Assembly (NCBI GenBank): GCA_947458585.1
Contig: CANGYY010000009.1
Coordinates: 1-64,000, forward strand
DNA: 64,000 nucleotides
Origin: Cyclobacteriaceae bacterium
GTDB lineage: Bacteria > Bacteroidota > Bacteroidia > Cytophagales > Cyclobacteriaceae
Direction of reading: 5' to 3'
The position numbers and the translations under genes were made by a program. The notes under the pieces are model-generated. The model ran no database searches and was not told where the DNA came from. It saw only the letters and a program-made list of their open reading frames with translations. Positions 13,733 to 15,397 of the stretch are shown one piece after another. Every line of letters begins with the position of its first letter. Positions within the stretch are counted from its first letter, which is position 1.

Positions 13733-14671
13733 ATGCCATTCCTACAACGCAAATTAGGTACAATAATTTTAGTTCTCGCCTCCTTTACGGGATTGTATGC
13801 CCAAGAAATTGACGGCAACAAGCTCCTACGACACTTGGAATACTTATCCTCCGATGCACTTGAGGGAAGAAAACCTTTGACTAAAGGCAGTAGTATGGCT
13901 CAAAAATACATATTGTCAGAACTTACATCCTTAGACTTGGTGGAGCCCCTGTATCCGGATTTTATCCAAAAATTTTCATTTGAAGACCGCCGCTCAAAAA
14001 AGATGGTGGTGGATGCAAGCAATATTGTGGCCTTCATTCCTGGAGCAGCCTCCAAAAAAGTAATCGTAGTTACTGCTCATTACGACCATGTGGGCATTGG
14101 AAGGGCAGATGCGTCAGGTGATTCCATCTACAACGGAGCAGATGACAATGCTTCGGGAACTGCAGCAATGTTGGTATTGGCCGAGTACTTCTCCAAAAAT
14201 CGTCCCCAGCATGGGATGCTCTTTGTGGGTTTGGACGCAGAAGAAATGGGACTTCAAGGAGCAAAAGCCTTGGTCAATGATTTTCCTTATCCGCTTGAGC
14301 AGATTGTATTGAATTTAAATATGGACATGCTTTCTCGAAGTGATGCCAAGGAGGTATATGTATCAGGAACCCATTATTATCCACAGTTTAAGGACATTCT
14401 TGAAAAAGTCCCTGGAGAAGCGGGTACCACGCTTCGCTTTGGCCACGATGTCCCAGGTACAGGAGCAGAGGATTGGACCAGGTCTTCTGATCACGGGGCA
14501 TTTTTCGAAAAGAAGGTCCCCCATCTGTATTTTGGGGTAGAGGACCATGCGGATTACCACCGGCCTAGTGATTCCTTTGCGGGAATCCATCCAGAATTTT
14601 ACAAAGCGACTGTGAAGCTAATCTTGAGATCCTTACGCGCCTTGGATGAAAGCTTGCTGGAAAAGCAATAA
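13733..14671 (+). CDS. M28 family zinc aminopeptidase
   Basis: VTAHYDHVG, GADDNASGTAAML, GLDAEEMGLQGAK metal-binding motifs; signal peptide. Confidence 0.93.
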   Translation: MPFLQRKLGTIILVLASFTGLYAQEIDGNKLLRHLEYLSSDALEGRKPLTKGSSMAQKYILSELTSLDLVEPLYPDFIQKFSFEDRRSKKMVVDASNIVAFIPGAASKKVIVVTAHYDHVGIGRADASGDSIYNGADDNASGTAAMLVLAEYFSKNRPQHGMLFVGLDAEEMGLQGAKALVNDFPYPLEQIVLNLNMDMLSRSDAKEVYVSGTHYYPQFKDILEKVPGEAGTTLRFGHDVPGTGAEDWTRSSDHGAFFEKKVPHLYFGVEDHADYHRPSDSFAGIHPEFYKATVKLILRSLRALDESLLEKQ

Positions 14672-14966
14672 CCTTTACAGCCTAAACTCCGATCAAGGAC
14701 TACTAGAAATAGTGACTTTGGATGCTATTCGACACATCATGTTTGATGCAGAAAAACAAAAAAATGTACTTGTCCGAGAGCTCATGCATAGTCCTTCAGA
14801 AATCCTATTCTCTTCAGAAAATATGCAATCAACTATGGGAAAGTTTGAGAAATCCGGAGCCTGGAATCTTCCTGTAGTGGAAAATAATCAATATCAAGGC
14901 TTTGTATCTAAGGCAAAAATCTTCAATGCTTATCGCAAAAAATTACAGCGCCAAAAAGAAGAATAA
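14646..14966 (+). pseudogene. C-terminal CBS fragment of a CLC-type voltage-gated chloride channel
   Basis: QGLLEIVTLDAIRHIMFD...VRELMHSPSEILFSSENMQSTMGKFEKSGAWNLPVVENNQYQGFVSKAKIFNAYRKKL matches the CBS tail of Bacteroidota CLC channels. No membrane domain upstream; an M28 peptidase gene abuts it. Confidence 0.72.
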
Positions 14967-14999
14967 ACACCAATTTAAAATAAAATTTTGTGTTTGAAA

Positions 15000-15158
15000 T
15001 TATCCACTTTTGCCAACAGATTTAGACTTGACAATCATGTAGTTAGCAAAGATTATCCACAAAATCCATTAAATGAAAATAGATTTAACTCATTGATTTA
15101 CATTGTTTTATAGGTTTTTTTATTATGAATGTGGATAAATTATTGAAATTGTGGATAA
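15000..15158. promoter_or_regulatory. Cluster of DnaA-box-like 9-mers
   Basis: TTATCCACT 15000-15008 (+), TTATCCACA 15053-15061 (+), TGTGGATAA 15130-15138 and 15150-15158 (TTATCCACA on -), in AT-rich non-coding DNA. Confidence 0.75.
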
Positions 15159-15240
15159 ATTTTTCTTGCATTTTTTAATCTGCTTTAATTTTGTATTTAA
15201 GGGCATTTTTTAAAATTTATTCAGCAAGAAATCGCCCAAT

Positions 15241-15254
15241 AAATACGCGTATTT
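15241..15254. repeat. Perfect 14-bp palindrome AAATACGCGTATTT
   Basis: Read directly; 80-90 bp from the DnaA-box-like cluster. Confidence 0.8.
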
Positions 15255-15321
15255 TACGACTAATTATAGACCCAAATTAAAATTAAATTTGGCAACCGGC
15301 CTACCGAAGGGTGAAGTGGGC

Positions 15322-15368
15322 AGAAAAAAACCTAGACAAGAATCTTCTCGAAATCCTCAACTAGGTTT
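15322..15368 (-). terminator. Probable terminator for mtgA (long-loop hairpin)
   Basis: AAACCTAG 15328-15335 pairs with CTAGGTTT 15361-15368; on the minus strand followed by a T-run. Confidence 0.5.
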
Positions 15369-15397
15369 AATCACATTTTAACAACTAATCTTCAAAT

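Follow-up and report, generated by a model that had tools for sequence, protein, structure and literature searches.

A conserved DnaA-box cluster with an IHF-like dyad near the predicted replication origin of Cyclobacteriaceae: a putative datA-like DnaA control site

The box cluster and its intergenic gap

The DNA analyzed here, a stretch of 64,000 nucleotides referred to as the window, represents contig C9 of an Algoriphagus-type genome (2.78-Mb assembly, 113 contigs). A 431-bp intergenic gap with an AT content of 72% separates a 106-codon CBS-domain ORF on its left from an mtgA-type transglycosylase gene on its right. Both genes end at the gap, in agreement with the initial annotation of this DNA, which had described mostly plus-strand genes on the left and mostly minus-strand genes on the right as converging on it. 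The four DnaA boxes that the same annotation had placed in the gap are indeed there, three of them perfect matches to TTATCCACA and one a match to TTATCCACT (Table 1). The three perfect ones had been judged very unlikely to have come together by chance, and a shuffling control agrees: among 20,000 dinucleotide-preserving shuffles of the gap, one perfect box was seen in 116, two in a single shuffle, and three in none (mean of 0.006 perfect boxes per shuffle; Poisson P ~3e-8 for three).

Table 1. Coordinates of the element, its gap, and the HU/IHF-family gene in the window
Feature	Coordinates	Strand	Remarks
DnaA box 1 (tandem pair, outer)	15150..15158	-	Perfect TTATCCACA; place invariant in Algoriphagus and in 41 family genomes
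DnaA box 2 (tandem pair, inner)	15130..15138	-	Perfect TTATCCACA; 20 bp from box 1
DnaA box 3	15053..15061	+	Perfect TTATCCACA; opposite in orientation to boxes 1 and 2; begins 77 bp from the start of box 2
DnaA box 4	15000..15008	+	TTATCCACT; last base T, G or C among relatives
IHF-like dyad in spacer	15086..15110	-	TAA-N4-YTGA-N3-TCAR-N4-TTA
Exact WATCARNNNNTTR match within dyad	15086-15098		
Short conserved flank outside box 1	15163..15178	-	TTAAAAAA-GCAAGAA type; Algoriphagus only
Intergenic gap holding the element	14967..15397		Between converging genes
Single PF00216 gene (HU/IHF family) identified in the window's genome	1006..1272	-	Candidate dyad-binding protein

Another perfect DnaA box stands alone at 14377-14385, inside the neighboring M28 peptidase gene; a near relative (L032) has a lone perfect box at about the same distance from mtgA. 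The ORF at the left edge of the gap (14646-14966) corresponds to the last ~97 residues of a 592-aa ClC/CBS chloride-channel gene, which is intact at the corresponding place in most Algoriphagus. The tail alone, ending beside the element, is also kept in the small-genome relatives L032, L040, L041, L042, L044, and L045.

Conservation of the core and of a central dyad

Conservation in relatives had been proposed as a check on the cluster, and the boxes, spaced as in the window, are indeed found next to mtgA in almost all Algoriphagus studied: almost all loci reaching the mtgA gap have matching boxes at matching distances, with the tandem perfect boxes 20 bp apart and the inverted perfect box 76-77 bp further. 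The fourth box, inverted and usually 52-53 bp beyond the third, varies in its last base and is absent or weaker in a few Algoriphagus loci; it is found in most loci of this genus and in about one-third of those read in other genera (26 loci).

For a wider survey, a strict core was defined as two tandem boxes, 67-69 bp, and one inverted box. It is present as a single copy in 41 of the 198 Cyclobacteriaceae genomes sampled, representing 23 genera, and in none of the sampled genomes from other families of the class; a reversed control pattern gave no match in the 198 family genomes. The remaining 157, in which this strict pattern was missing, may carry relaxed versions of the core or none. All 30 family loci that were read have the core between genes, and the neighbors vary by genus. 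Beside mtgA, the core is absent in Belliella, Aquiflexum, Mongoliibacter, Arthrospiribacter, and Mongoliitalea, and one contig presumed to come from Belliella kenyensis has it at a different place, so that the element appears to change neighbors yet persist.

These data bear on the proposal that the boxes serve as a DnaA-regulated promoter, or as a transcription block, for the adjoining genes. DnaA is a transcription factor in other bacteria, and converging genes could conceivably be separated by a protein block; nevertheless, both neighbors in the window end at the gap, which leaves the promoter proposed in the initial annotation weak, and neighbors differ between genera while the core stays. 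A further point against such a role is that the gap has no Rfam match (up to E 0.1); since it holds no tRNA either, an RNA or tRNA in the gap was ruled out. We consider regulation of the adjoining genes very unlikely.

The 67-69-bp spacer is poorly conserved, apart from the dyad TAA-N4-YTGA-N3-TCAR-N4-TTA, whose distance from the tandem boxes is fixed. At this offset, an average of 12.2 of 14 dyad positions match in 82 loci, compared with 3-7 when the offset is shifted and 5.0 when the spacers are shuffled, although these controls overstate the strength of the dyad somewhat, the motif having been derived from the same loci. An independent check is provided by its recurrence in oriC loci that were found by a pattern without the dyad (see below). 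By motif comparison only, each half of the dyad is near the E. coli IHF consensus (WATCARNNNNTTR), and the two halves are in opposite orientation. The two inner boxes lie ~31 and 36 bp, respectively, from the dyad center, and a sharp bend at this point would be expected to join the DnaA arms on either side.

The three genomes searched have one PF00216 gene each; in the window's genome, its product is a candidate for the dyad-binding protein. A single gene would imply a homodimer, which would fit the symmetric site. About 14-17 kb separates the gene from the element, both in the window's genome and in two closed relatives, G034 and G009.

Position relative to the predicted oriC

GC skew, sampled in G034 and G009 (60 and 40 stretches of 20 kb), has one minimum and one maximum in each genome. 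In G034, for which the region 400-800 kb was read gapless, the skew reaches its minimum at ~610 kb, well away from the locus at 455 kb; in G009 the skew switches between 4340 and 4440 kb, and the locus is at 4286 kb. In neither genome does the locus sit at the skew minimum, where an oriC is expected.

When any box cluster near the skew minimum was sought, an AT-rich gap downstream of ybeY and mnmG was spotted, here called gap C (618.4-618.9 kb in G034; ~4400 kb in G009, inside the skew switch). In the Algoriphagus loci covering it, gap C has three to seven TCCACA-type boxes that end in a T.TCCACAAATCCACAG / CCTTAATAACCTTAATAG / T-rich arrangement. Known origins combine a DnaA box, a DnaA-trio, and an unwinding element, and the core of gap C resembles such an arrangement. 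A pattern made from this core only matched in further genera (26 hits, some plainly due to chance), and in most origin-like hits the dyad was present 115-117 bp upstream of the core, though it was outside the search pattern. The skew switch, the origin-like core, and the recurrence with the dyad in further genera lead us to predict that gap C is oriC. In the window's genome, gap C is on contig C11 (L274, 57624-60607); this contig ends near the predicted oriC, which has the conserved core and boxes.

Two other candidate origins were discarded. An origin linked to dnaA is contradicted by two observations: in the window's genome, the 3.5 kb surrounding dnaA contain no perfect box, and dnaA and gap C are ~0.76-1.04 Mb apart in G034, G009, and G022. 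In the box-rich zone at 551-585 kb of G034, all boxes are within genes and form no compact cluster.

The locus itself has some attributes of a chromosomal replication origin: a tight, conserved DnaA-box cluster in an AT-rich intergenic gap, present once per genome near the skew minimum, and in 400 kb of G034 the sole compact intergenic cluster of perfect boxes. Against this stand the skew minimum of G034, ~150 kb off at the mnmG-adjacent gap with its origin-like core, the skew switch of G009, which brackets the mnmG-linked gap too, and the centering of the surrounding box field on gap C. The right flank of the cluster (15159-15235) is, at 77% AT, as AT-rich as its initial comparison with a DNA unwinding element implied, but no conserved unwinding or trio-like element was found at the locus, where conservation is limited to the boxes, the dyad, and, within Algoriphagus, positions 15163-15178. 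It also happens that dnaA lies 925 and 927 kb from the locus in G034 and G009, on opposite sides. We treat this seeming mirror symmetry about the locus as coincidence: most opposite-side gene pairs of the two genomes put the symmetry axis further right, ~80-170 kb from the locus with some scatter, which agrees with gap C at +114 and +163 kb. On account of the skew, of the greater part of the mirror symmetry, and of gap C itself, we reject the locus as oriC and give that reading very little weight. The initial annotation had already argued against an origin, and its argument holds. What it had named as refuting the oriC reading was a skew minimum and a box cluster linked to dnaN/dnaA at another place; both lie elsewhere, but the cluster is linked to mnmG and not to dnaA.

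The locus is tied to the origin region rather than to the far-off dnaA. It lies 66-304 kb from gap C in 11 Algoriphagus genomes that have both on one contig, and 53 and 74 kb from it in two genomes of other genera (G124 and G217). With the locus and gap C excluded, perfect boxes are ~5-fold enriched within 300 kb of gap C in G034 and G009, relative to the remaining chromosome, and their mean offsets from it are -10 and +2 kb. Dispersed perfect boxes, often in coding genes, were seen over several hundred kb around the predicted oriC (G034:C1:551338-585087; G009:C1:4100926-4683645; G204:C12:864242-1078538; contigs C11 and C33 of the window's genome).

The enrichment near the predicted oriC is consistent with titration, that is, with boxes that merely hold DnaA within an origin-centered dispersed field and form no catalytic complex. 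Support for titration in E. coli comes from the same kind of evidence, since both E. coli and Salmonella have their boxes concentrated near the origin (Olivi et al., 2025; PMC12371093). Titration alone, however, requires neither an invariant spacing nor a fixed dyad, and as a full account of the locus it appears quite improbable.

A proposed DnaA control site and its known counterparts

The explanation that we favor, with modest confidence and on the strength of the comparative analysis, is that the locus serves not as an origin but as a DnaA control site, conserved in the family and close to the origin, that works like E. coli datA. The invariant spacing, the single core per genome, the intergenic place with varying neighbors, and the fixed dyad common to the predicted oriC support a control site. 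Together with the position near the origin, the invariant spacing, the single copy, and the IHF-like dyad in mid-spacer also support the earlier suggestion of a titration or reactivation site.

In such a control site, DnaA would bind the two tandem high-affinity boxes on one side, and the inverted box and the weaker one on the other. An HU/IHF-like protein on the mid-spacer dyad (assuming that the HU-family protein of Bacteroidota binds it) would bend the DNA so that the two DnaA arms meet. Given its closeness to oriC, the site would be doubled early after initiation. Its effect is most likely negative, as the origin-proximal place and the high-affinity boxes suggest: DnaA would be captured, or hydrolysis of its ATP stimulated as by E. 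coli datA, and premature re-initiation would be prevented. The locus probably helps decide when the chromosome is copied. No second PF00308 protein (e.g., Hda) was found in the genomes searched, and hence no Hda-type system was seen. A more specific version, which we put forward tentatively and consider rather doubtful, is a DnaA-inactivating locus of new design whose evolution in Bacteroidota was independent of datA; on the symmetric dyad, a homodimeric HU-family protein would fold the two DnaA arms together, near an oriC that uses the same dyad, in a box field of ~600 kb, and in genomes where no Hda paralogue was seen.

Little is known about the timing of chromosome replication in Bacteroidota, and we found no description of such DnaA control sites in Cyclobacteriaceae in the open-access literature, of which coverage was incomplete. 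The 159-bp element defined here, the candidate for the protein that would bend it, and the predicted oriC are all testable in cultured Algoriphagus. If our reading is correct, DnaA control sites that resemble datA and lie near the origin are not confined to Proteobacteria.

E. coli datA is intergenic, lies near oriC, and together with IHF promotes hydrolysis of DnaA-bound ATP; it contains one IHF site, the distance of its DnaA boxes from this site matters, and it is weakened when moved away from oriC (PMC10380432). The locus has in common with datA an intergenic place (30 of 30 loci), proximity to oriC (53-304 kb from the predicted one), several high-affinity boxes at constant spacing, and among them, at a constant distance, one IHF-type site, recognized as a sequence motif. 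The plan of MG1655 datA is the same but its order is different: one box is 56 bp from the IHF match and a box pair is ~84 bp away on the other side, whereas at the locus a tandem pair and an inverted box flank the dyad at 31 and 36 bp. The dyad of the locus is symmetric and the IHF site of datA asymmetric, and no homology is expected. Because box order and distances differ, we do not class the locus as a homologue of datA and propose only that it works in a similar way. The unlike box order, the converging boxes that recall DARS1, and the missing strict core in 157 of the 198 family genomes count against the datA-like reading.

A DARS-like site would act in the opposite sense: a DnaA complex on the inverted boxes would promote exchange of ADP for ATP and so reactivate DnaA for the next initiation. 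DARS1 and DARS2 share with the locus perfect and near-perfect boxes in opposed orientation within intergenic DNA; high-affinity boxes converge in DARS1 as they do here, and IHF is used by DARS2 too (PMC10380432). DARS1 has three close boxes, within ~35 bp and with starts within 26 bp, and no IHF match was found in its sequence. The boxes of the locus are 20, 77, and 53 bp apart, far wider than the closely spaced core I/II/III, and span 159 bp around a dyad near oriC. E. coli DARS1 and DARS2 are far from oriC, unlike this site, which stays close to the origin. A DARS-like function is therefore unlikely, in our estimate.

Gap C, the predicted oriC, resembles the locus in its DnaA boxes, its dyad, and its AT-rich intergenic DNA, and is unlike it in having many weaker boxes, a box/trio-like/AT-rich core, and a skew switch. 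The density of boxes around the origin of E. coli and Salmonella has a likeness here in two Algoriphagus genomes whose boxes, many of them intragenic, are ~5-fold enriched within 300 kb. Among the known systems, the locus is closest to datA in plan and position, and to DARS1 in its converging boxes.
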